Shown piece by piece: positions 48,809 to 64,000 of a stretch of DNA of 64,000 nucleotides. Both the position numbers and the translations under genes were made by a program. The notes beneath the pieces were generated by a model. It searched no databases and had not been told where the DNA came from. It was given only the letters and a program-made list of their open reading frames with translations. Each line of letters opens with the position of its first letter. Position 1 is the stretch's first letter. Origin of the DNA: Chitinophagaceae bacterium (GTDB lineage: Bacteria > Bacteroidota > Bacteroidia > Chitinophagales > Chitinophagaceae); assembly GCA_024643655.1 (NCBI GenBank), contig JAHEMM010000001.1, positions 62,001-126,000 of the forward strand. The letters run 5' to 3'.

Positions 48809-49741
48809 TCAATCTTGGTGTAATTGATTCATTACCAGTTTTGGTGATCTGTCAATTTTAAATACGCCCCAATGCTTTTCGGGCTCGAATGGTTCAGGTG
48901 AACCTTTCCATGATTCATCGAATGCTTCAAAAAAGAAAGTAAGTACTTTGTTTTTTTTAGACCAACTCATTAAATCTTCGTAATAAGTTTTTTGATTTTC
49001 TTCACTCACATGTTCAGGATTTATTCCTCTTCCATTTGAATTTGTTGCCCAACCAGCTTCAGTAATAACTATAGGCTTGTGCGGATATAAATTGGAGACT
49101 ACTTCATAATTAGATTGGGTGTAATCAATAGCTTCATGAATATGTTTATATTCCCAAACAGGATATGTGTGAATAGATATAAAGTCAACTATTTCGGCAA
49201 GACTTTTTAGTTTATTTAGCCACGGAACATAGTTTTCACAAAAAGTAACCGGTTGTTGTGCGTTTTCTTTAACCAGGCGTACATATTTAATTACCTGGCT
49301 TTCGGGAACATAGTGATCTGTCCAGTCTACACAAGCTTCATTCCCTACTGAGAGTGAAAAAATGATATCTGAATATTTATTACTCCTGTCTATTAGGGTT
49401 TGAATTTTTTTAAGATTTCCTATTCTATTTCTCTCCAATTGTTCTTCGGTATAGACACCGCCTCCCCAGGGACAGCCAAAATTATTCATCTCTGCTTCAA
49501 TATAGGCGCCTAACATGACTTTGAATTCCAGCTGCTCCTGCTGAATTACTTGTAGCACAGTGTCTGCATGTATATCACAGTCGTATAAGCGAAGGTATTG
49601 CCATTCTTCTTTCAGCAGTAAAAGATCTTCCTTAACTTCCTGGTATGTTGGGTATTTATGACCTGGCTGTTGTCCTTCACGAAATCCTGAGTAGCAAATA
49701 GCTCTTGCTTGTGGCAGGTTAAAGGCAGAAAAAATGTCCAT
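48809..49741 (-). CDS. GH17-like glycosidase/transglycosidase, no signal peptide (predicted cytoplasmic)
   Basis: Acid/base 'SVGNEACVDW', nucleophile 'VITEAGWAT', 'FFFEAFDESWKGS'. Confidence 0.85.
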   Translation of the reverse strand: MDIFSAFNLPQARAICYSGFREGQQPGHKYPTYQEVKEDLLLLKEEWQYLRLYDCDIHADTVLQVIQQEQLEFKVMLGAYIEAEMNNFGCPWGGGVYTEEQLERNRIGNLKKIQTLIDRSNKYSDIIFSLSVGNEACVDWTDHYVPESQVIKYVRLVKENAQQPVTFCENYVPWLNKLKSLAEIVDFISIHTYPVWEYKHIHEAIDYTQSNYEVVSNLYPHKPIVITEAGWATNSNGRGINPEHVSEENQKTYYEDLMSWSKKNKVLTFFFEAFDESWKGSPEPFEPEKHWGVFKIDRSPKLVMNQLHQD

Positions 49742-49742
49742 A

Positions 49743-50639
49743 CTAATATTTCAATTTTTCATCTTTATCCCAGATACCCCAATAGGCTCCCACTTCCCCT
49801 TCAGCGCCTACTTTCCAGGATTCATCAAAAGAAGAAAAATAAAATATCGGTATATCTTCATTATCAGACCAAATTTGTGAGTTGATAAAATAATGCAATG
49901 CATTTTCAGTTGATGGTATAGCGCCTTTAAGACTTTCGCCTTTACTTGGCCATCCAGTTTCAGTTATTATTGTTTGTTTCCCATTACCAGCAGCTTTTGC
50001 CTGATGATACATTTGCTTCATATAGTCTAAAGAATTTTCATAATTACAACCTTCCCAGTATGGATAACAATTGCAAAGAATAATATCACAAATGTCAGTT
50101 ATTCTAGGACGATGGGAAAATTCATAATATGCATCTACATAGCCAACTGGAATTCCCGGCAATTCATTTTTAACATGTTTAATAAATTCCAACAACTCAT
50201 CTTCCGAAAGATCTTTCCTATACATTACTTCATTACCAACAGCTGCAATATCCACCATTCCTTCTTTAGCTAACTTTATTAATCCCTCAATTTCTCGTTG
50301 ATTTATTTCGGGATCATTTCCCAGCCAAGCACCCACTAAAGTTTTAATACCGTATTCTTTAGCAATTCGAGGGATATATTCATTGCCTTCAGTACATGAA
50401 AAAGATCGGACCCAACGGGTGTGAGGACGCAAAATTTCCATTCTTCTTCGTACCTGCTCTTCAGAAATAATATCACCAGGTTTTTGACCATCCTCATACA
50501 GACTAAAACAAAAACCGTGAACACCATTTTCCATAATGTCGCTGAACAAATTTTTTATTTCAGCTTCATTTTTTCCAGAAAGAAAATTTTCTTCCCCCGC
50601 AGTTGCTATAGATAAATACCGTTCTTTTCTGAAAGACAT
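49743..50639 (-). CDS. GH17-like glycosidase/transglycosidase, no signal peptide (predicted cytoplasmic)
   Basis: 'AVGNEVMYRK', 'IITETGWPSKGE', 'FYFSSFDESWKVG'. Confidence 0.85.
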   Translation of the reverse strand: MSFRKERYLSIATAGEENFLSGKNEAEIKNLFSDIMENGVHGFCFSLYEDGQKPGDIISEEQVRRRMEILRPHTRWVRSFSCTEGNEYIPRIAKEYGIKTLVGAWLGNDPEINQREIEGLIKLAKEGMVDIAAVGNEVMYRKDLSEDELLEFIKHVKNELPGIPVGYVDAYYEFSHRPRITDICDIILCNCYPYWEGCNYENSLDYMKQMYHQAKAAGNGKQTIITETGWPSKGESLKGAIPSTENALHYFINSQIWSDNEDIPIFYFSSFDESWKVGAEGEVGAYWGIWDKDEKLKY

Positions 50640-50715: not shown

Positions 50716-53085
50716 TTAAGAAATATACTTTGGTTTTTCTTCAATATTCCATAATCCCCATTGTGTACCGACTATTCCTTCTTGTTGAATTTTCCACGAT
50801 TCATCAAAGGATGAGAAATAAAATACTTCAATATCTTCTGCATTTGCCCAATGCTGAACATTGATAAAATATTTCATAGCATTTTCTGTTGATGGTTTTG
50901 CTTCTAATACATCTTCTCCTTTACCAGGCCAGCCTGTTTCGGTGATAATTACTTTCTTGCCCTTTGCAATTTGATTTGTTAATGCATACATGTACTGAAT
51001 ATATTGTAAGGCATAATCATTATTAGCGCCTTCCCAGAAAGGATAACAGTTAATTAAAATAACATCACATGCATCTACTAATGCTGGTCTTTCAATGAAT
51101 TGGTAATATGCATCTACATATCCAATTTGAATGTGATTGGGTAGTTGTTGTCTTACTTGATTTATATAATTTATAACTTCTTGTTCAGATAGCTCATTAC
51201 GTTGTAAAACTTCATTTCCAACGGCCACTATATCTACTAAACCTTCTTTAGCAAGGTTGACGATTGAAATAATTTCTTTTTCATTTCTTTCTTTATCATT
51301 ACTTATCCAGGCACCTACCATTGATTTTAAACCTTTTTCCTTTGCAATTTTAGGAATCATTTCATGCCCTTCGGTACAAGAAAATGACCTTATCCATTTT
51401 GTGTGAGGTGCTATTATTTCCATTCTTCTGCGAGTTTGTTCCTCAGTTACCAGATCACCCGTTTGCTGACCTTCGGTATAAGGGCTAAAGCATAAACCAT
51501 GTAGTCCTTTTTGTAATGAAATTGAATATTGGGATTTTATTTCTGCCAATGCTTTATTACTAAAATCTACTCCGGTATTTGTATGCAAATTGAATCCCTT
51601 CTCTTTAAGTAAAAGTAGTTTGCCTGGCAAATAAGAAGAAGAGCCAGCTTTCTCTGCTTTTTTACGATCGATTGCTGCCCTAACTTCAAGTGCCTTTTCT
51701 TCAGTAACATCATAATTACGCATCACATACATGGCAATAAGAGTACCTACTATAGGAAGTCCGGAAAAGAAGGCACGAAGTCCAGTAATTGCACCTTCCT
51801 GTTCAATTCCCGGAACACCTTCTTTAAACCCAACTATGGAAATTATAACACCACTTAAACCACCGGCTATAGCAAAACCGAACTTAACCATCCACCAATA
51901 TATAGCACCAAAAATACCTTCTCTCCTTTTACCTGTATTCAATTCATCCAAATCAATAACATCAGAAGTCATGGACATCATAAGCGTAAAAAGACTTCCT
52001 ATTCCAAATGCAAAGAAAGGTAGAGCAAAGATGAACATATAGGGTTTTCCAGGAATCAGGAGAAACCAAAGCATCACGTAGCCAATTAGTGAAATTCCCT
52101 GCGACCAAAGGAAGGCTTTTTTCTTTCCTAATTTTCTAGACATCCAGGTTACAATCGGAATCACAATAAAAGTAGTAGATAGTGCACCTAAACTTCCAAA
52201 AAGCGTTGGCCAAAAACCTGCATTAGCGGCTTCTGTATTTCCATTAAATAAATGGTAAACAATTACAAAGAAGGTGAATGTTGCAACTGTATTAAAAGCA
52301 TTAAATATGAAAAATGTGGAGATACATAGTTTTCTAAAAGGTTTAATCTTAAGAGCTTCCCTAAAGCCCTGAATGATTTCATCAAAACTCCCACGAATAT
52401 TTCTAAAGTTTAATTCCGAATAGTTTTCGTTTAATGTGGATTTACTTTTTATAAATATAGCCGGTATCATTGCAACGATCATTAAGATGATGCCTGTCCA
52501 AATTGCAAGGGTTCGTGTAGCACTTTCTGCAGATGTAAACCATCCATTAGGACCGTTATCATACATAATTACCCAGAACCAAGGCGCTATAACCCAGGCC
52601 CATTGACCAATCCATTGTGCAATTGCCATAATATTGGTTCGTTCATGAAAATCGTTACTCATCTCATAGCCCATAGCCACATAAGGCACACTAAAGATTG
52701 TGAGCCCTAAATAAAAAACGAATGACCAGAACATAAAATAAATGAAGTTATAATCTACTCCACTTACTTTATATAGTTGCCACATTATAACAAAGGAAAT
52801 TCCCATGATAATAGCACCAACAAAAACATACTGCCTACGCCTTCCCCATTTCGATTTGGTATTATCCGAAATAAAACCCATAATAGGATCAGTGAAGGAA
52901 TCAAATATTCTTGGGAAGAAGTAAATAATACCCCACATCCAACCCGGAAAACCTAAATTTTGTACCAAGACCACCATAAAAATTCCTAAGGCTGCAGGGA
53001 ACATTTGATTGGCGAGCATACCAAATCCAAAAGCTACCTTTTGCCCAAATGGCACTTTATTTTCTATTTTAATTTCATTACTCAT
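50716..53085 (-). CDS. Fusion protein: N-terminal GPH/MFS-type sugar transporter (about aa 1-490) and C-terminal GH17-like domain (about aa 503-789)
   Basis: Single uninterrupted 789-aa ORF; 'GFPGWMWGIIYFFPRIFDSFTDPIMGFISDNTKSKWGRRRQYVFVGA' is the GPH symporter motif; C-terminal 'AVGNEVLQRN', 'IITETGWPGKGE', 'FYFSSFDESWK' parallels the neighbouring GH17 ORF. Confidence 0.92.
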   Translation of the reverse strand: MSNEIKIENKVPFGQKVAFGFGMLANQMFPAALGIFMVVLVQNLGFPGWMWGIIYFFPRIFDSFTDPIMGFISDNTKSKWGRRRQYVFVGAIIMGISFVIMWQLYKVSGVDYNFIYFMFWSFVFYLGLTIFSVPYVAMGYEMSNDFHERTNIMAIAQWIGQWAWVIAPWFWVIMYDNGPNGWFTSAESATRTLAIWTGIILMIVAMIPAIFIKSKSTLNENYSELNFRNIRGSFDEIIQGFREALKIKPFRKLCISTFFIFNAFNTVATFTFFVIVYHLFNGNTEAANAGFWPTLFGSLGALSTTFIVIPIVTWMSRKLGKKKAFLWSQGISLIGYVMLWFLLIPGKPYMFIFALPFFAFGIGSLFTLMMSMTSDVIDLDELNTGKRREGIFGAIYWWMVKFGFAIAGGLSGVIISIVGFKEGVPGIEQEGAITGLRAFFSGLPIVGTLIAMYVMRNYDVTEEKALEVRAAIDRKKAEKAGSSSYLPGKLLLLKEKGFNLHTNTGVDFSNKALAEIKSQYSISLQKGLHGLCFSPYTEGQQTGDLVTEEQTRRRMEIIAPHTKWIRSFSCTEGHEMIPKIAKEKGLKSMVGAWISNDKERNEKEIISIVNLAKEGLVDIVAVGNEVLQRNELSEQEVINYINQVRQQLPNHIQIGYVDAYYQFIERPALVDACDVILINCYPFWEGANNDYALQYIQYMYALTNQIAKGKKVIITETGWPGKGEDVLEAKPSTENAMKYFINVQHWANAEDIEVFYFSSFDESWKIQQEGIVGTQWGLWNIEEKPKYIS

Positions 53086-53095
53086 AATAAGTGTA

Positions 53096-54586
53096 TCATT
53101 GGTTTATAATAATTGTTTGTATTGCTTTGTTAGTTATTTTTAAATAGATGGATTGTTCACCTTGTAATACTGTAAAATTTTTTTCTTTTTCCGTAGGATT
53201 AAAAACTACAAGTACGATGGAGCCATCTGTATTTTCTGCAGCAGTAATTTGAAGGTCTTTATCTGTTTTTTCAAAACCAATTCTGACAGCACCTGGCCGG
53301 ATAAATCTGCTAAAATGTGAAAGAGTATAATATAATGGCGTAAAATAAACTTCATCTTTTTCAGGATCAACTATTACCGGTGCCGTACACCAGTTTTTAA
53401 ACCAGTTAGGACCTCCTTGTTTATCCAAAACCATGTTCCAATCTATCCAACCATCTACATAATTATTTAAACAACCAATGATATCTTCAGCATATCGATT
53501 AACTGGGGCATATTTTGGATGTAAATGTTTTTCTTCTTCTGGTGCCCAATCCCAACCCCAGTCAGTCGCTTCTTTGCTCCAATACCAACTATCATCCTGC
53601 CATTTTGGAACTTCTGAATCAACGCAGGCTTCTGATTGAATTAAATGCTTTCCCGGAGATTTATGATGTGCATATTGTAAAGCTTCGGAAAATACATCGT
53701 AGGTACTGGCATACCAATGAATAGCAGTTCCATGAAAATATTTTGAGGACTTTTCATTTTCATACATCACATCCACCCATCCTTTTAATAGTTCTCTATT
53801 TTGATCATATCCTAAAATCTTTACATTGGCTTTGCCATCTGCTTCTAATTTAGGCCCTAAATGATTTTGAACAAAAACTGTCATTTCCTCGGGTGTATAA
53901 TGCATGCTTTCCCAATTGTTGCCATTTCCCAAAGGTTCATTCTCTACGGTTATACCCCAAATATCAATTCCTTCTGCTTTGTAGGCGTCAATATATTTTG
54001 AAAAAAATAATGCCCATGAATCATAATATTTTGGCAATAATTTACCTCCGACCCATTTATTATTATCTTTCATCCAGGGTGGAGCTGTCCAGGGTGATGA
54101 TAAAATTTTAAATCCATCTATTGAAATTGCCATTGCATCTTTAATCATTGGAATTATATCATCTTTATCTTCCTTAATTGAAAAATTTTTTAATTCCACA
54201 TCCCCTTCTATTGGAGCGTAAGAATAATTACTTAAAGAAAAATCGCAGGAATTGATATGGGTTCTGGTTAGCGAATAACGGGCACCGCTCTGACCGAAAT
54301 ATGCCTCTAGAATTAAGTTTCGCTTCTCCTTGCTTAATCTATTTAACAATGAAGCAGAAGATTCTGTAAACGAACCGCCAAAGCCTGTTATAGTTTGAAA
54401 TTTATTTGCAGATAGTAATTTGATAGTGCTTGCATTATTACCTGAAGATAAAATATCGATTGGCTGTAGTTTATTGCCATTAGCAGAAGTTTCAAAAACT
54501 TCAATACTTAATTTTTTCTCAGAGGTGCATTCAGTTAGCGTTGCCATCATTGAAAATAAAATAACACATTTCTTAAAATTAATCAT
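53096..54586 (-). CDS. GH30 family lipoprotein (beta-glucosidase/beta-1,6-glucanase type)
   Basis: 'ITGFGGSFTESSASLL', 'LSSPWTAPPWMKDN', acid/base 'ITVENEP', nucleophile 'IQSEACVD'; lipobox near 'TLTECTS'. Confidence 0.92.
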   Translation of the reverse strand: MINFKKCVILFSMMATLTECTSEKKLSIEVFETSANGNKLQPIDILSSGNNASTIKLLSANKFQTITGFGGSFTESSASLLNRLSKEKRNLILEAYFGQSGARYSLTRTHINSCDFSLSNYSYAPIEGDVELKNFSIKEDKDDIIPMIKDAMAISIDGFKILSSPWTAPPWMKDNNKWVGGKLLPKYYDSWALFFSKYIDAYKAEGIDIWGITVENEPLGNGNNWESMHYTPEEMTVFVQNHLGPKLEADGKANVKILGYDQNRELLKGWVDVMYENEKSSKYFHGTAIHWYASTYDVFSEALQYAHHKSPGKHLIQSEACVDSEVPKWQDDSWYWSKEATDWGWDWAPEEEKHLHPKYAPVNRYAEDIIGCLNNYVDGWIDWNMVLDKQGGPNWFKNWCTAPVIVDPEKDEVYFTPLYYTLSHFSRFIRPGAVRIGFEKTDKDLQITAAENTDGSIVLVVFNPTEKEKNFTVLQGEQSIYLKITNKAIQTIIINQ

Positions 54587-54643: not shown

Positions 54644-55924
54644 TTAATTGATCTTTTCATTCAAAGGTGGCAGCATTACTTCTTCAAATAATGATTGAAA
54701 GTTGCCACTGTAAGTTTTCTCTATTTTATTTCCTCCTCTTTTCATTCCATTAAACACACCTTTATCTACAAGATCCCAAATAACAAATTTTGCTTTACCA
54801 TCAATGGTGAATAAACCAAAGTGATTTTCGGAACCACCAGGATTAGCGGCATCTTTCCAGATTTCATCAAAGGCCTCAAAATAGAAACAGGCAATTGCTT
54901 CCCGGTTTGTCCATTCTCTTATTTGATTGTAATACAACCCTTCTTTGTATTCATCCGTTGCTTTTGAACCGTTTGCGCCATAATGTTCATTTGAAAAACT
55001 GGCCCAGCCTGTTTCTCCAATATGTATTGGCTTTTTAATACCGAGTTGTTGAATATAATTTGACACAGCTTGATATTGAGAAATAGTGTAATCTCTTGCA
55101 CGATTCATTGCAGCGATAATTTTTGTTGTATCTGATAGCGATTCTTCCTTATTTGAGATTCCCCAAAAATCAGGATTGTAATGTGTATCATGCATTGGGT
55201 AAGAATGCATAGAAATATAATCAACAGCCGTTATTAATTTTTTTAAATCCTCTACATGATATTCTTTATCGCCTCCTCCCCAGGAAGCGAAATTATCAGA
55301 GCTTGTAATCCAAAGATCTTTAGGTAGTGACCCAGCTTTTTTTAAATCCTGTAATTGATTAACATATTTTAAAATGACCCACGGTTGTACATAGTAGCTT
55401 GCTGCCCATTTTACCATTGCTTCATTGCCCACGGCAATAATTTTTACAATATCTGGGTATTGGTTCGTCAGTTCGATCGCTTTTTGAATTTCGGCACCAT
55501 TGGCTGCTGTATCTTCATCATCATGTTTGGGATGGCCTGTCCAGGCCTTTTTACAATCGATCCATGCACCCAGCATTACATACATTTCAAACGTTGGGGC
55601 TTCTTTTTTTAATTGATGAATAGCTTGTAGAAGATTAGATGCTTCGGCATATTTGGTTTGATATGTTCGAATTATTTTGATATTCATTGCAAAAAGGATT
55701 TTCATATCCTCTTTCAATTGATCTACTGTAGGTTGAATGTCGCGGCTTTTGTCACGGTAGCCTCCAAAAGAGATGGCTAAATAATTAGGATTTCCCAGAA
55801 TATCTTTAGCTGTCATTTTTTGTTTTGGTGGATGATTATTTGTGTCTTTTTGTTTTGAATTGCAAGAGAAAACGATGGCCAAGGCCAAAAATAATACCAT
55901 CGTTTGCCGGCTTGCACTTTTCAT
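54644..55924 (-). CDS. GH17-like lipoprotein
   Basis: Lipobox 'LAIVFSCNSKQ'; 'AVGNEAMVKW', 'HIGETGWASFSN', 'FYFEAFDEIWKD'. Confidence 0.87.
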   Translation of the reverse strand: MKSASRQTMVLFLALAIVFSCNSKQKDTNNHPPKQKMTAKDILGNPNYLAISFGGYRDKSRDIQPTVDQLKEDMKILFAMNIKIIRTYQTKYAEASNLLQAIHQLKKEAPTFEMYVMLGAWIDCKKAWTGHPKHDDEDTAANGAEIQKAIELTNQYPDIVKIIAVGNEAMVKWAASYYVQPWVILKYVNQLQDLKKAGSLPKDLWITSSDNFASWGGGDKEYHVEDLKKLITAVDYISMHSYPMHDTHYNPDFWGISNKEESLSDTTKIIAAMNRARDYTISQYQAVSNYIQQLGIKKPIHIGETGWASFSNEHYGANGSKATDEYKEGLYYNQIREWTNREAIACFYFEAFDEIWKDAANPGGSENHFGLFTIDGKAKFVIWDLVDKGVFNGMKRGGNKIEKTYSGNFQSLFEEVMLPPLNEKIN

Positions 55925-55925
55925 A

Positions 55926-58900
55926 TTACCTCAGTTTTGATTCTTCAATATGTACTGTAATTTGTACAACTTCACCAGTTCTTCCGAAAATTTCATTGCT
56001 ATTTTGAATGTCAATATTTAAATTTTCGAATGTGGTTAGCGTATTATTTTTATTTATTAATTCAACTTTATTTGAAGTTGATATTTTATATACAATTGGT
56101 ACTTGACAACAAGTGAAACAAAGTGAATCTTTTTCCAATGGCAACTTTTTATGTTCCAGATTTACGTTTACAAATTCAAATACTGCAGGTGTTGTGATGA
56201 ATTCCTTTTTTTGTAATAAACATGGATTAAAATGAAGCTGACCACTAATTATAAAAACACCTAATTCTCCCAACCTGCTCAAAATGTCTTCTTTTACCTG
56301 ACCTGTCATGCCGGGTTGTTGAGCTCCTTTACCGATTGGCGTATGGGAGTAAGGATCTGTAGGAAAAGCGCCATAGGTAGCTGGTGATTTATGAACACCA
56401 ATACCTTCAAATATTTCGTAGAAGTGATTTACTAATTTATCCGTTGTTGAGGTTGATGTTTTTGCATCGATTGCCCTGATGCAAGTTTCCTGTACTGCCA
56501 GTAGTAATTTTGAAACCATATGCCAATAAATGGACCCTAATCCTTCATAGCCATAAAAAGTTCCAGACCGCCCAGTAAATTCTTTATGATTAAAAACTTC
56601 TTCGAAAATCTGTAATAATAGTTCTCTGTCTTTTATAGCGAGTTCCTTATAATCTTCGTTGAGGCTATCTATTGCATTTTCAAGATCACGGGCATTCCTG
56701 AAATTTCCATTGAAGTGATAATTTCCATTGATATCTTTTTCAACAATTGAATTTACACTTTGGGTTTGTAGTTTTTTTAATAATGCAGAAGCTTCAACAG
56801 ATTTTGACGGAATTGTATTTTTTTCAATAAACTTCGACAATGATTTATTGGGATACAATATATAACTGGATTGATCTTTACGATATAATTTACTTTCCTT
56901 TAATGAATCCAGCACATTTAAACTTTCTTCAGCTGTTAAATAACCAGAACTTAATACGGCTACCTGGCCTTCCAGCATTTCACTTAGATGAGAAACAGAT
57001 ACAGCACTTTGATTAATGTTTATCAGATTATAGGAATGATACATGCCATCAGTTCTTTTATTTGCCTGTATCGAATGCTCCATAAATTGTAGCGATAGAT
57101 TTGCAAATTCTAATAGATCACCACCTGTCACATCTTTTTTAGCACCTGAAAACTGTTGTGAATAAATCTGGTTTCTGAAATCACTACCAGCAACACCTAA
57201 TGTATCTACTATTCGTTTTCTGTTTTTGTCATCAAATGAAGTTGATAAAAGGTTTTTATTTTCTACTAATACTTTTTGAATAGCAACAAAAAAATGATGT
57301 ATTTCATCTGATACGGAAAATGTTTTATCCTTGCTATTTTTAAAAATGGGTTGGAAAAATTTTAAAAATCTTCTCAGATAATATAATGTAACCATTGAAA
57401 TTCCATTACCTACTAAGGCATTGTTAGCATCGTTCCATTCAGGTCGCTGCGTATTCATCCAAATTCCACCTTCTGGAACAAAATTGGAAAGTTTAGAAAG
57501 TACAGTTGCTAATATCTTTTCTACAAAGCTTATATGATATATGGCACTCTGCTTATTCGTTAATAAAGCGCCGTCTGCTCCAAGCGATTTTTTCCGATCC
57601 AGAATCTTTTTTTCGCCTTCGTGGTCAAATTCAATTGTGTCTTTTGGATTTTGGACAATATCGGAGTAAGATTTTATCCGATAAGGTACATTGGCATATA
57701 CGAATCCGTTCTTTTCTAAGTCCCTTTCAATTGAACCTGGGTTATACTGCTCTTTGAATTCTAATAATTTCAGTAAATAGATAATTTGATGATCACCCCA
57801 ATAACCGATATATGACCAGGGATTGTCTGGTTCAATTGCTTCCCAATCAAAACCGTCTTTTGTAACCCGGTATGGGTTATAGCCATCAAAAGTGGAAGCA
57901 TTAAGAAACTTCCAAATCATACCATCAATAAATGCTGGATAGGAGTGAACCAAGGCTTCCCAGTTCTGAAAAATATCCCGCCAGTTTCCCTGGTAGTCTA
58001 GTATTTTTGAACCATCAATTTCACTTCTTGTATTAATAGAAAATTGGTTCCATGGACGGCTCGGATCCCCATGACGTCTACTGAATTTTAAAGGCAAATA
58101 TTCTATTGCCAATCGTTCAAAATTCAAATTATTTGTAGAGGCGATTACTTTTTTTAGATATTGAAGTGAAAAAGTTTCATCAAGTTGTTGCCAAATAGAA
58201 CTGCTTTCGTTATAGACAGCTGGGTTTGCTTTTTCAAGGTATTTACAAAAATCCCATTTTTCAATCTGATAATTATTATCGAATATACCCCCACGCATAA
58301 TGTTGAATAGTACGTTGGAATAATGTCTGGTATCTTGTAAAACGTCTGATGTTTTCTGAAAGCTGTCTGCGGCAGCTGTCAATTCTTTTAAATGAAGGGT
58401 GCCCTCATTAACATCAGCTAGAATTTTTTCACTTAAAGTAGAACTGGTATTAATAAAATTGGAAAGCTGGATAATTGAAGCATGATTTTGATTTACGTTT
58501 GCGATGATCATCCATTCCTTTTCTTTAGAAGGCTCAATAATAATCTTATCTACAATAAAATATGCCCCTTTTTCACCTTTGATATCTTCTTCCTGATTTA
58601 CACTTTTTCCTAAACGAAAATTATTTAGTTGTAAAGAAGAAAGTAAATAAGTAGGATTACTAAATCCAGTACTCCAAGTAATATTTGCTTTTAGCGCTTC
58701 ACTTGGCTCTGCCTTATCTACTATGATTGCACTTAATGCAAAAATACCCACACCTGATTCTGGAATCAATTCAGACCGCTTATATGCATCTACTAGGTTG
58801 CTTGATTGATTTTGTAAATCGGCTCCAACCCCATAAGGCAAAACATTTTGCAGACCATCTAAAATATTAATCTGATAAGTTGTTGATGAAAGATTTTGAA

Positions 58901-59330
58901 GTCTCGATCTTTTTACAAATCCATGTAGATTGCTGGAGTTCCACTCATATTGAAAGGATAGTGATAACTCTTTATTAATTTCTTCAAATATGATTTTATT
59001 GCCAAATGTATTTTTATAAAGATTCCTTTGAATTTTATATTTTCCTTCATCTCTGATTGAGAAGGGCTCCCAAATTAATATTTTGTCATTCTTTATAATT
59101 TGAAAAATAGTTTTACTACCCGTTATTTCAGCTGATTCAGTTATTTTATCGTCAGTATAATAAGGGAATATTGCATGATCTGAATTTTTTCGCCCTGCAC
59201 TAATACCTCCATTGCTAGAAATAAACATCCAATGGTTCGAATCACTTACAATACTCATAAAAAAGGGACGCATAGTATCTGCATCAGCAATTTTAAAAAA
59301 TAGTTCGTCTTTAATTGTTATGGTCTGCAT
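55926..59330 (-). CDS. Large cytoplasmic glycoside phosphorylase candidate (GH149/GH161/GH94-type, probable beta-1,3-glucan phosphorylase)
   Basis: 1134 aa, no signal peptide; 'LDYQGNWRDIFQNWEALVHSYPAFIDGMIWKFLNASTFDGYNPYRVTKDGFDWE', 'PDNPWSYIGYWGDHQIIYLLKLLE', 'YGAFPTDPYSHTPIGKGAQQPGMTGQVKEDILSRLGELGV' recalled as resembling this phosphorylase group; GH17/GH30/GH16 context. Confidence 0.65.
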   Translation of the reverse strand: MQTITIKDELFFKIADADTMRPFFMSIVSDSNHWMFISSNGGISAGRKNSDHAIFPYYTDDKITESAEITGSKTIFQIIKNDKILIWEPFSIRDEGKYKIQRNLYKNTFGNKIIFEEINKELSLSFQYEWNSSNLHGFVKRSRLQNLSSTTYQINILDGLQNVLPYGVGADLQNQSSNLVDAYKRSELIPESGVGIFALSAIIVDKAEPSEALKANITWSTGFSNPTYLLSSLQLNNFRLGKSVNQEEDIKGEKGAYFIVDKIIIEPSKEKEWMIIANVNQNHASIIQLSNFINTSSTLSEKILADVNEGTLHLKELTAAADSFQKTSDVLQDTRHYSNVLFNIMRGGIFDNNYQIEKWDFCKYLEKANPAVYNESSSIWQQLDETFSLQYLKKVIASTNNLNFERLAIEYLPLKFSRRHGDPSRPWNQFSINTRSEIDGSKILDYQGNWRDIFQNWEALVHSYPAFIDGMIWKFLNASTFDGYNPYRVTKDGFDWEAIEPDNPWSYIGYWGDHQIIYLLKLLEFKEQYNPGSIERDLEKNGFVYANVPYRIKSYSDIVQNPKDTIEFDHEGEKKILDRKKSLGADGALLTNKQSAIYHISFVEKILATVLSKLSNFVPEGGIWMNTQRPEWNDANNALVGNGISMVTLYYLRRFLKFFQPIFKNSKDKTFSVSDEIHHFFVAIQKVLVENKNLLSTSFDDKNRKRIVDTLGVAGSDFRNQIYSQQFSGAKKDVTGGDLLEFANLSLQFMEHSIQANKRTDGMYHSYNLININQSAVSVSHLSEMLEGQVAVLSSGYLTAEESLNVLDSLKESKLYRKDQSSYILYPNKSLSKFIEKNTIPSKSVEASALLKKLQTQSVNSIVEKDINGNYHFNGNFRNARDLENAIDSLNEDYKELAIKDRELLLQIFEEVFNHKEFTGRSGTFYGYEGLGSIYWHMVSKLLLAVQETCIRAIDAKTSTSTTDKLVNHFYEIFEGIGVHKSPATYGAFPTDPYSHTPIGKGAQQPGMTGQVKEDILSRLGELGVFIISGQLHFNPCLLQKKEFITTPAVFEFVNVNLEHKKLPLEKDSLCFTCCQVPIVYKISTSNKVELINKNNTLTTFENLNIDIQNSNEIFGRTGEVVQITVHIEESKLR

Positions 59331-59558: not shown

Positions 59559-60413
59559 CTAAAGTTGTTTGTACACCTTTACATAATCAATATACATTGA
59601 TTGAGGAAATGGTGTTCCTGTTGTGGGGAAGCCAACAAAATTACCGCCTACCGCTACATTGAATAATAAATAAAATGGATGATTGTATACCCATTCTCCG
59701 TCAACATCTTTTGGAGTAATTCTGTAGTATAAAAAATTGTCAACATAATAATCTATAAAATCTACGCCCCATTCTATTGCATAAACATGATAATCTGTAT
59801 CAAATCTGCCACTTGTTAGTGCATATGCTTTTGAAATAGAAGTTCTTCCTGAAAAGCCGGGACCGTGTACACTGCCATATGTAATAGAAGGATGTTGGCC
59901 TCTTTGTTCCATAATGTCAATCTCACCACATTGTGGCCAAGGTACTGCATCAATATTAGAACCTAACATCCAGAATGCAGGCCAAAGACCAGGGCCCGTA
60001 GGTGTTTTTATTCTTGCTTCAAAGCGACCATAAGCCTGAGCATATAAATCTTTTGTTTTTATTCTTCCAGAGGTATATCCAGCTCCAGCAAAAGATTCAC
60101 TGCGTGCTGTTAATACTAAGCTGCCACTACCATCTAGCTGAACATTTGAACTTCGATCGGTATAATATTGTAATTCTTGATTTCCCCATCCATCTCCACC
60201 TGGACCTCGTCCAATATCAAATGACCATTTTGTATTATCAGGTTTTGATCCTGCAGCTCCACTAAAGTCATCACTCCATACTAACGTCCACTCCCTTTCA
60301 GGCAATGTTTGTACTACTTCTTTTTTACAACTGCTTAATGAAAGAAGCAGTAATAATGTAAAAGAAAGTGTAGTAAATAATGGAGTTTTCAATTGCTTAT
60401 ATATGGTTATCAT
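59559..60413 (-). CDS. GH16 family lipoprotein (laminarinase-like endo-beta-1,3-glucanase)
   Basis: Lipobox 'LLLSLSSCKKE'; catalytic 'WPQCGEIDIMEQRGQ' (ExDxxE), 'GPGLWPAFWMLGSN'. Confidence 0.95.
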   Translation of the reverse strand: MITIYKQLKTPLFTTLSFTLLLLLSLSSCKKEVVQTLPEREWTLVWSDDFSGAAGSKPDNTKWSFDIGRGPGGDGWGNQELQYYTDRSSNVQLDGSGSLVLTARSESFAGAGYTSGRIKTKDLYAQAYGRFEARIKTPTGPGLWPAFWMLGSNIDAVPWPQCGEIDIMEQRGQHPSITYGSVHGPGFSGRTSISKAYALTSGRFDTDYHVYAIEWGVDFIDYYVDNFLYYRITPKDVDGEWVYNHPFYLLFNVAVGGNFVGFPTTGTPFPQSMYIDYVKVYKQL

Positions 60414-60465: not shown

Positions 60466-61884
60466 TTACTTATAGAAATATACATTATCCACAAATACAT
60501 TTGGAATAGTGCCCGAGAATACCATTTGTGCAAGATTACTTCTTGTAGTCAAACCTGTAAAGCTTGAAAGTGGGACATCTATTGTAACCCAATTATTTGA
60601 AACTAATGTAGGTCTTGTTATTGTAATTTCATGTTCCTTGTCGTCGCCACCTCCAAATGTATTATTGGCTCCAAAATCTATAAGTTTAATTTTAAAATTA
60701 TTTGGCAATGTAGTATTATCCGGTGTCCAAATATTTAAATGAAAATTGGTCATGGTACTTGCATTAATCGTATTGGAAGTGAATTCAATTCCAACAAAAT
60801 TTAAAGTTTTATAACGGATAACATCATCAGTATTAATTTTTACAAAGGACTCTTCTGCGGTTGAAAACAACCATCGGGTATTCCAGGTATCTATTGCCAC
60901 ATTGGTATATGCATTACTATACATTGAAATTACATTTGCAGCGTTGCGGGTAGGTGTAGGTGCTGGAGTAGGTGGAAAACCGGCCAGACCAATTGAAGTT
61001 AAATTCAACTTACCTAATGTGATATTTCCATTCATTGTCGCTGTAATAACAGTTGTACCTGCTGATAGAACAGAGACAATACCTAGTTCATTTACTGTTG
61101 CCACAGATGGTACTGAAGATGAGAAAGTTAAATAATAAGGAGAAATTGATGCTCTTTGATTAACACCAGTTGGTAAATTTACAGACACCTCAAATGGGCT
61201 TAATGATATTTTGTCGCCATTTTCCGCATTTGAAATAGTTCTGTTATCTCCATTTAATATTACGCCAGTAAGCCCTGATAAATCAGTTAATTTTTCAAAC
61301 TTAACTTCATCTATCCAAAAGCTATAACCTCTTCCATTTTCAGGAGCTGCAGCATAATAAAACAATCCTTTCTCTCTACTCAGCTTAGATGGATCTGGAA
61401 GCGGAATAATTACTTTTTTCCAACTACTATTTACCTGTAAGTTTTTTAATGCAACCTGATGTTGTTTAGTACCTAAATCAAGGTCATCTCCAAATCCAAC
61501 TTCAGCAATGGTAGCTGCTTGAGATGCTTTTATATAAAAAGTCAAAGCATTATATCCTCTTAGATCCCTTCCGATTTCACTAAGGTAAGTACCTCCGGCA
61601 TATGAACCATTCGGGCTATTTGCATCTGGCACATCATATCGCATAGATATTGTAGTGTTTCCATAACCTACTTGGTTATCTACTTGAAAAGCTCTTACAT
61701 CTGATGTTCCATACGCAGCATAGGAAAGATCACCAGTGAAACCATCTATAAACACTTCAGCAGTTGTAGGGAAGGTAGGACTTTGTAGTCCACCTACATC
61801 TCTCTTACAACCAAAAGTTGTTAATATTAAGAGTCCAAATATATTGAACAAGACATTTTTTAATAATTGGTTTTTTTTCATATT
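60466..61884 (-). CDS. Putative surface glycan-binding lipoprotein (CBM-like, Ig-like BIG2, CBM-like)
   Basis: Lipobox 'LLILTTFGCKRD'; BIG2-like 'SSVPSVATVNELGIVSVLSAGTTVITATMNGN'; flanking jelly-roll-like modules ending 'FWIDEVKFEKL' and 'VFVDNVYFYK'; start set to MKKNQLLKNV. Confidence 0.75.
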   Translation of the reverse strand, partial: NMKKNQLLKNVLFNIFGLLILTTFGCKRDVGGLQSPTFPTTAEVFIDGFTGDLSYAAYGTSDVRAFQVDNQVGYGNTTISMRYDVPDANSPNGSYAGGTYLSEIGRDLRGYNALTFYIKASQAATIAEVGFGDDLDLGTKQHQVALKNLQVNSSWKKVIIPLPDPSKLSREKGLFYYAAAPENGRGYSFWIDEVKFEKLTDLSGLTGVILNGDNRTISNAENGDKISLSPFEVSVNLPTGVNQRASISPYYLTFSSSVPSVATVNELGIVSVLSAGTTVITATMNGNITLGKLNLTSIGLAGFPPTPAPTPTRNAANVISMYSNAYTNVAIDTWNTRWLFSTAEESFVKINTDDVIRYKTLNFVGIEFTSNTINASTMTNFHLNIWTPDNTTLPNNFKIKLIDFGANNTFGGGDDKEHEITITRPTLVSNNWVTIDVPLSSFTGLTTRSNLAQMVFSGTIPNVFVDNVYFYK

Positions 61885-61919
61885 AATTTCTTTAATGTTT
61901 TCGTAATATGCCAATACTA

Positions 61920-64000
61920 TTATTTACCGATATTGATTTGAATATAAGTTCTTATTTCCCATTCATTACCATTTGGAAAACCAATGGCATTTGGATCAGG
62001 CACCCAGTTACCAGCTCCATCTAGTGTTTTAATTGGCGAATATCTTGGAGAGTATTTATTCAACGTTCTATAAGTACCTCTAATTCCAAGTTTGGTACCG
62101 GGTAACATAAACCAATCCGGTTTTCCAATTTCAGTTGAAAAGTCTGCTATCAATTGTAACGGGAATGTTAAGTTAAAGTCACGATGATAGTCAAAAGGAC
62201 CCCAATCGTTAAATTTACCTATAGCCATTAATTTTGTTTTCTTAAAAATACTCCTTACATCAAACCCATATCTGTTAATAGTTCGGGTATCACTACCGTT
62301 AGCTTGTCCGTTACCTACATAAAGATTAGCTATTAAACCAAGATCGGGATTTAGTTTAGAAACTACTCTTGTATTTATTTCCCATAGATTCTGTGCAGGA
62401 GCTGCTCCAGGAAATGCAAAAGTCCGTCTTGCACTCGTTATGCCAATAGCAGCATCTTGTGTAGTAGGCAAATGTCGATATACAAAATCAGCACTAATAG
62501 CCAACTTTGCATCTTCTGCACGGTCATTATCCCATTCATACATCCAGGTACCCGGTGTAGGGTCGTAGGTTAATAATAATTCTCCTGCGATCGTTTCTCT
62601 ATTTGAACGGACTGAAAAAGGATCATCCAAAATATTTCTTGGTCTTCCCGGTGCTAATAACATATCAAAAGGTATTGGACCTTCGATTGGTTTTTGCCAT
62701 AAAAAATTAGGGGCAATTTGCAAATTTCCTACACTAAAAGTCAATCCACTCAACACATTATACATATTCCCACTTCCAATATCTTTTAATCGCCATCCGG
62801 TAAATGTTCTGGTATTATCATAACCGCCATTAGCAACAAGCCCCATATAGGAAGCTTGGCCATACCAATTGATTATACCTTTACTATAGGTTAGTTTTAT
62901 TTTTCCACCGAAATTGTCTTCTGATTTAATCTGATCCTGATATATTTTGTAATTACCGGCTTCGCCTCTAATTAATTGAAAGTCTCTGCCATTCAAAGGT
63001 TGTCCAGCCCATAAACCACCTATATCAATCCCAAAATTTTCAAATTTCCTTGAAATGCTTAAAGCCGCTTTTCTGGTTTTTGGAGTAGGTATGGCAAATG
63101 AACTTTGTAATCCACTACGTTGAACTAAGTCTTCATGAAACATTCCAGTTACATCAAATTTGGACAGTTTTCTGGTATATTTCACTAATACTGCAGGGTT
63201 AGCTCCCCACCATAGCTCGGGACCAAAAGCAATTTTTAATCCTTTGATAGCTTTTTTCCCTTCTATTTCAAAACCAAATGGAGCTTCTCCATTATAGATA
63301 TCTATATTAGGACCATAATTTGCTTCTGGATATAAGCCAAAAAAATCGCCTTCATATCCCCAATGATAATGTCCTGTCCTATAAAAACCAGTAAGGTTAA
63401 ATATTTTATTGTTCCAGTTAAAACTACTCCTATATAATTGTACCCTGTTATTGGAATTAATAATCTGCGTTCCGGTAGGCGTATTAACAGTTATTTTTCT
63501 TCCTCTGTTCTCGTAAAAAACTTCATCAATTGGATTTTCGGCTACATTACCTAACACATTAAATTGAACATTTGCTGTAACATTAGGAGCAGGCTTTGCC
63601 GTAAGACCAATATTAAAAGATTGCATATGATCAAATCCTAATTTGTTTGGATATACTGGATTATTAGGATCTGCCTCTTTTGGTGTGGCAATTAAACTAC
63701 CTCCAGTGTTATAAGTTGTAAAATTCGCTTGTAAATTGCTGAGGTAAAGCTTTCCTTTATCATGACTTTCTAAAGCTGCTTTATCGCCTCGAGCCCGTAA
63801 CATGGCATCTTTTATTTGTATATTATCAAAATTATTGATTTGTGTACTTGCGCCAGTTTTATAAGGATTAAATTGATGTGCTTCTTTTAAAGCATAATAA
63901 GCAGCTCTTGGATATAATTCATACAAACCTCTTTCGTTTGTTTCTCCTTTAGCGCAAATTCCAAACCACTCTTCATTCATATTGTTCTCACCTTCTTTAA
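61920..64000 (-). CDS. 5'-truncated fusion: C-terminal end of a GH clan-A (GH2-type TIM barrel-like) domain followed by an outer-membrane beta-barrel
   Basis: Frame open to window edge (KEGENN before the ORF-track ATG at 63980). N-terminal 'NEEWFGICAKGETNERGLYELYPRAAYYALKEAHQFNPY' reads like the end of a glycosidase barrel; the rest has alternating beta-strands ending 'WEIRTYIQINIGK'. Confidence 0.75.
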   Translation of the reverse strand, partial: KEGENNMNEEWFGICAKGETNERGLYELYPRAAYYALKEAHQFNPYKTGASTQINNFDNIQIKDAMLRARGDKAALESHDKGKLYLSNLQANFTTYNTGGSLIATPKEADPNNPVYPNKLGFDHMQSFNIGLTAKPAPNVTANVQFNVLGNVAENPIDEVFYENRGRKITVNTPTGTQIINSNNRVQLYRSSFNWNNKIFNLTGFYRTGHYHWGYEGDFFGLYPEANYGPNIDIYNGEAPFGFEIEGKKAIKGLKIAFGPELWWGANPAVLVKYTRKLSKFDVTGMFHEDLVQRSGLQSSFAIPTPKTRKAALSISRKFENFGIDIGGLWAGQPLNGRDFQLIRGEAGNYKIYQDQIKSEDNFGGKIKLTYSKGIINWYGQASYMGLVANGGYDNTRTFTGWRLKDIGSGNMYNVLSGLTFSVGNLQIAPNFLWQKPIEGPIPFDMLLAPGRPRNILDDPFSVRSNRETIAGELLLTYDPTPGTWMYEWDNDRAEDAKLAISADFVYRHLPTTQDAAIGITSARRTFAFPGAAPAQNLWEINTRVVSKLNPDLGLIANLYVGNGQANGSDTRTINRYGFDVRSIFKKTKLMAIGKFNDWGPFDYHRDFNLTFPLQLIADFSTEIGKPDWFMLPGTKLGIRGTYRTLNKYSPRYSPIKTLDGAGNWVPDPNAIGFPNGNEWEIRTYIQINIGK

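Follow-up and report, generated by a model that had tools for sequence, protein, structure and literature searches.

A MelB-type transporter fused to a GH17 domain in a probable laminarin cluster of a Chitinophagaceae bacterium, with a predicted accessory role for the tethered enzyme

Genes and features at the locus

The window analyzed here, a stretch of 64,000 nucleotides from a Chitinophagaceae bacterium, carries a gene for an MFS(GPH/MelB-type)::GH17 fusion protein on its minus strand (50716..53085, 789 aa; identified from the open reading frame, Pfam and AlphaFold); all genes named below lie on the same strand. The frame runs from an ATG to the stop codon without internal stops. Pfam assigned residues 19-462 to MFS_2 (E 1.8e-66; 224.9 bits, cut-off 27) and residues 605-787 to Glyco_hydro_17 (PF00332; E 6.1e-12; 46.2 bits, cut-off 28.2). 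Together with the two catalytic glutamates described below, this bears out a sequence-only reading of the DNA, which had placed a transporter and an intact GH17 domain in one frame. That a single protein unites a sugar importer with an enzyme that cleaves beta-1,3-glucan is confirmed. The protein consists of a transporter part (residues 1-480, 51646..53085; Pfam MFS_2, AlphaFold, Foldseek and alignment), a flexible linker (about residues 481-500, 51586..51645; delimited by pLDDT and homologue lengths) and the GH17 domain (residues 501-789, 50719..51585; Pfam, phmmer, Foldseek and residue counts).

The fusion gene is part of a cluster with the order GH16, GH149, GH17A, GH30, MFS::GH17, free GH17 and third GH17, in which the intergenic gaps from GH149 onward are 1-76 bases. 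The GH16 lipoprotein (59559..60413, Pfam 3.4e-22) is preceded by a candidate surface glycan-binding protein (60466..61914), a putative lipoprotein in which a CBM_11-like stretch scored below the Pfam cut-off. GH149 is a beta-1,3-glucan phosphorylase of 1134 aa (55926..59330; NCBIfam NF058639, 1754.6 bits against an equivalog cut-off of 1150). It is followed by a GH17A-type endo-laminarinase, assigned from Pfam and the conserved gene order (54644..55924), and by a GH30 protein expected to be of the beta-1,6-glucosidase type (53096..54586, Pfam 8.6e-78); both are putative lipoproteins. Downstream of the fusion lie a free-standing GH17 (49743..50639, 298 aa) and a third GH17-like protein of a separate clade (48809..49741, 310 aa), both assigned by Pfam and tree. 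Inspection by eye showed lipoprotein-like starts in GH17A, GH30 and GH16, and no visible signal peptide in the free GH17s and GH149. Promoter and terminator scans gave signals at chance level.

The order GH149-GH17A-GH30-fusion-free GH17 is common to most Bacteroidota loci in a scan of 80 homologous loci; GH30 is often absent from Cyclobacteriaceae-type loci, and Burkholderiales loci have the order free GH17-third GH17-fusion instead. A search for a susC/susD pair beside the cluster and among the open reading frames of the window's locus (L152) found none, and the SusD matches of the genome are located at C15:38024, more than 70 kb away, and on other contigs. Lacking an adjacent susC/susD pair, the cluster is not a textbook PUL.

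Structure and sidedness of the fusion protein

AlphaFold, run on the fusion protein with the sequences of 52 fused homologues, gave a model with a mean pLDDT of 83.7. It contains 12 long helices within residues 13-455, as expected from the 12-TM topology proposed earlier, and a TIM barrel at residues 513-789. Two additional helices (residues 227-246 and 462-479) are cytosolic. The stretch between the two halves, about residues 479-500, is uncertain, with pLDDT below 50 at residues 479-485 and 497-500, and the pTM of only 0.59 leaves the relative placement of transporter and GH17 domain undefined. The linker measures 13-28 aa, mostly 17-28, in those homologues where its length could be determined.

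A Foldseek search with the first half returned MelB (9old, TMt 0.84), and with the second half RmBgt17A (4wtr, TMt 0.86); the GH17 domain also matched RmBgt17A in a phmmer search (4wtp, 2.2e-28). Among solved structures, MelB (PDB 9OLD, 7L16) and RmBgt17A (PDB 4WTP/4WTR) come closest in fold to the first and the second half, respectively, although they are separate proteins. The score against the NCBIfam GPH model TIGR00792 was below the cut-off (172.6 against 231.35 bits). The motif DSFTDP, with D62 and D66, and K401 are invariant in 52 aligned transporter sequences. Judged from the motif, these residues would be equivalent to Asp55 and Asp59 in helix 2 and Lys377 in helix 11 of MelB, which we take to be the paired-Asp/Lys sites of the GPH family.

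When the helix boundaries of the AlphaFold model were used, 32 lysine and arginine residues fell into the 143 residues of the predicted cytoplasmic loops, compared with 3 in the 95 periplasmic residues. Because the GH17 domain comes after helix 12, a cytoplasmic location is predicted for it; the charge distribution and the MelB-like fold support this prediction, which the sequence-only reading had also made.

Relation to known systems and proposed role

The sequence-only reading knew of no characterization of this architecture, but it has already been published (PMC6246565, PMC10108472). The MFS-GH17 fusion is known and common in laminarin-eating bacteria, and the protein of the window is an ordinary example. 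Unfried et al. (2018) described FORMB_24740/FbGH17B of Formosa sp. Hel1_33_131 and measured its GH17 activity, showing that debranched laminarin and oligosaccharides are hydrolyzed to glucose (PMC6246565). Like the protein of the window, FbGH17B has an N-terminal 12-TM MFS part and a C-terminal GH17 domain and is encoded in a laminarin cluster with GH17A, GH30 and GH149. The fusion of a Formosa MAG (L048) is 68% identical to that of the window over 779 aa. Unlike the cluster of FbGH17B, that of the window has no susC/susD pair beside it. In 2023 a GH17-MFS fusion was reported from most of the expressed variant-1 laminarin PULs, including those of SAR92, Luminiphilus and SAR86 (PMC10108472). 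These PULs, others of which come from North Sea Bacteroidota, share the fusion and the cluster type with the window. They belong to marine Bacteroidota and Gammaproteobacteria in that paper's grouping, whereas the fusion was found here also in Burkholderiales, in another gene order.

We consider the protein to be an FbGH17B-type fusion whose GH17 domain is a tethered cytoplasmic accessory in a cluster for laminarin (beta-1,3-glucan) utilization, and assign this explanation as a whole a probability of about 0.78. The periplasmic lipoproteins GH17A and GH30 would convert laminarin to linear laminari-oligosaccharides, which the MelB-like part would import, probably as a cation symporter. Held by its linker of about 20 aa at the cytoplasmic exit, the GH17 domain would shorten the oligosaccharides on arrival, and GH149 next to it would phosphorolyze them to glucose-1-phosphate. 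GH17 would act outside the transport mechanism. The substrate of the transporter, the symport and a local channeling are what we infer for these steps. Laminarin is a major algal carbon store, and the type of laminarin-consuming cluster that harbors the fusion is a common one.

The acceptor site of the GH17 domain

The catalytic acid/base is E625 in VGNE and the nucleophile E716 in ITETGW; the retention of both motifs had been noted from the sequence, and both glutamates are kept in 102/102 fused homologues. An acceptor-site tyrosine has been reported to be essential for transglycosylation, together with a tryptophan and a glutamate (PMC11005184). This Tyr-Trp-Glu triad of RmBgt17A and MlGH17B is incomplete in the fused domain, which keeps Trp684 and Glu685 and has Gln628 at the position of Tyr102 (RmBgt17A) or Tyr136 (MlGH17B). 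Most fused domains lack the tyrosine that most free copies keep, which is a new observation: the 102 fused domains have Leu (59), Met (16), His (8), Gln (7), Tyr (7) or Phe (5) at this position and the 87 free GH17s have Tyr (67) or Leu (20), counts that mirror relatedness as well as function, with 20 of the free enzymes also being without the tyrosine. In the main clade of fused GH17 domains (90 rows) it does not occur at all. The tryptophan and the glutamate are invariant in fused and free GH17s alike, and the free GH17 of the window (49743..50639) has retained the tyrosine.

The most serious alternative is that the fused GH17 acts mainly as a transglycosylase that elongates or branches the imported oligosaccharides, like MlGH17B and RmBgt17A. 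That the nearest solved structure is a transglycosylase, that the acceptor-site tryptophan and glutamate are invariant in all fused domains and that MlGH17B is 53% identical to FbGH17B (PMC11005184) speak in its favor, but the tyrosine, present in 67 of 87 free and only 7 of 102 fused domains, is a glutamine here. Exchange of this tyrosine in RmBgt17A abolished transglycosylation, as cited in PMC11005184; the mutant carried alanine and not glutamine or methionine. Since FbGH17B was moreover reported to release glucose (PMC6246565), we regard a mainly transglycosylating enzyme as unlikely. The residue pattern fits a fused type that is a hydrolase and a free type that is a transglycosylase. A division of labor, in which the tethered GH17, having lost the tyrosine, now acts as a hydrolase where substrate leaves the transporter and its anciently separated free paralogue has remained a transglycosylase, is a tentative proposal to which we give somewhat worse than even odds.

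FbGH17B has a methionine at the Tyr136 position (PMC11005184) where the protein of the window has a glutamine, and the product profiles of the two may differ. MlGH17B of Muricauda lutaonensis lacks a signal peptide and its gene adjoins that of an MFS transporter (PMC11005184, PMC13188888). It is a free-standing transglycosylase, in contrast to the fused enzyme domain studied here, and by its tyrosine, not by tree placement, it corresponds to the neighboring protein 49743..50639 and not to the fused domain. The third GH17-like protein (48809..49741) has ITEAGW in place of ITETGW and a valine at the position of the acceptor-site tyrosine; it forms its own clade and is often encoded by the last gene of the cluster.

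Fused and unfused transporters

Since the scan of 80 loci favors full-length matches, frequencies were taken from evenly drawn genome samples. The transporter was present in 30 of 399 genomes of the order sample (13 fused, 17 unfused) and in 19 of 396 genomes of the phylum sample (13 fused, 6 unfused). The order sample contains eight genomes from the window's genus, of which only the window's own genome carries the transporter. Altogether, 26 orthologues of the transporter, about 60-90% identical, lack the GH17 domain and occur in scattered, separate lineages. One of them (L112) is 90% identical and ends with a clean stop two residues past the matched region. A further candidate (L091) was dropped: its reading frame runs into the contig end, and a GH17 fragment of the fused type begins another contig of the same genome.

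These unfused orthologues bear on the possibility that uptake and hydrolysis are obligately coupled, with GH17 being needed for transport, e.g., by pulling the substrate through the carrier. The single polypeptide, the conserved linker length and the high conservation of the fusion would agree with it, but close orthologues such as L112 do without the domain, and proteins with and without it are interspersed in the transporter tree. We therefore hold obligate coupling to be very improbable, and the direct coupling of uptake to hydrolysis suggested earlier is doubtful in this strict sense. Because the 26 orthologues without the domain are scattered, the enzyme probably serves as an accessory to which uptake is not strictly tied, a new point drawn from the comparison of sequences.

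In 25 sampled genomes with truly unfused transporters, no stand-alone GH17 of the fused type was found; 11 of them have only the free type and 14 gave no match at E<=1e-30. In the division of labor proposed above, the fused type, which has no free-standing form among the loci covered, was repeatedly discarded with its tether, and this would point to a use confined to the membrane. That close relatives have the same transporter either joined to the enzyme or without it amounts to a deletion experiment run many times by nature, and with these natural pairs the benefit of tethering the enzyme to the importer for uptake becomes testable.

Origin of the fusion

A transporter tree was built from 102 fused and 26 unfused rows, with the contig-edge case L091 left out. 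The fused and unfused states require 14 changes on this tree, and AU tests rejected topologies in which all fused rows or all unfused rows were forced together (p 2.9e-40 and 8.2e-66). Of the proteins sampled, the nearest to the window's transporter are L005, which is fused, and L112, which is not. The simplest reading would be one early fusion followed by many losses of the domain; repeated regain via exchange between strains would also fit. Fusions of Burkholderiales (Rubrivivax, Hydrogenophaga, Rhodoferax and relatives; loci L056, L057, L059, L061, L067, L071, L074, L079, L080, L082, L083 and L084) form one clade, starred in the transporter tree, that is nested among Bacteroidota, which suggests a transfer between phyla.

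A single group of 88 rows (SH-aLRT 98) in the GH17 tree makes up the free type; it includes all ten free GH17s encoded next to unfused transporters and, as its only fused member, L098. With this one exception, fused-type and free-type GH17s lie on opposite sides of one branch (SH-aLRT 98), placing the split between them before the divergence of the families, as read from the tree. The fused domain does parallel its free neighbor 49743..50639, as had been noticed (57% identity over 280 aa), and the proposed fusion of a duplicated copy stands as an ancient event, not as a recent one. A recent local duplication of the adjacent free gene, for which this resemblance and the adjacency would speak, is rejected by the GH17 tree and has next to no probability: when compared with another species, type by type, the window shows 78% identity in the fused domain and 85% in the free copy, and the two types separated before the families diverged.

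A sequencing or assembly error, or internal initiation giving two separate products, is just as implausible, and nothing in the window speaks for either. Against an error, 79 of the 80 best homologous loci in the scan of genome contigs, from independent genomes of many families, have the same uninterrupted fusion with a similar linker, which rules out the missed stop or frameshift suspected at 51580..51620.

In the exceptional protein of L098 (L098:472-2934, minus strand), a linker that is longer than and unrelated to the usual one joins the MFS part to a free-type GH17. The whole free-type enzyme follows the transporter in frame, and MSFREERF, with which it once began, survives within the fused sequence, so that L098 looks like a second, independent fusion by read-through.

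A neighboring GH158-like protein

At the end of the window lies the C-terminal part of a GH158-like protein with a putative outer-membrane beta-barrel (61920..64000, minus strand). The complete protein of 1042 aa extends beyond the window to G000:C15:127048 (L152:2921-6049). It comprises a signal peptide, a GH158/GH2-like TIM barrel, whose nearest solved structures are GH158-type laminarinases, and about 600 aa without a Pfam family. AlphaFold predicted many long beta hairpins resembling an outer-membrane barrel for this latter part, with a moderate pLDDT of 68, and the outer-membrane barrels MOMP, BtuB and OprC are also among the Foldseek matches of the protein. Given that the cluster has no susC/susD pair nearby, the protein may combine a laminarinase with an outer-membrane pore of its own. 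A literature search found no description of such a GH158-like protein with a barrel, and it deserves more attention. Of the 53 genomes with a match in the order sample, 43 encode the full-length protein, and most of the others have the enzyme without the barrel.
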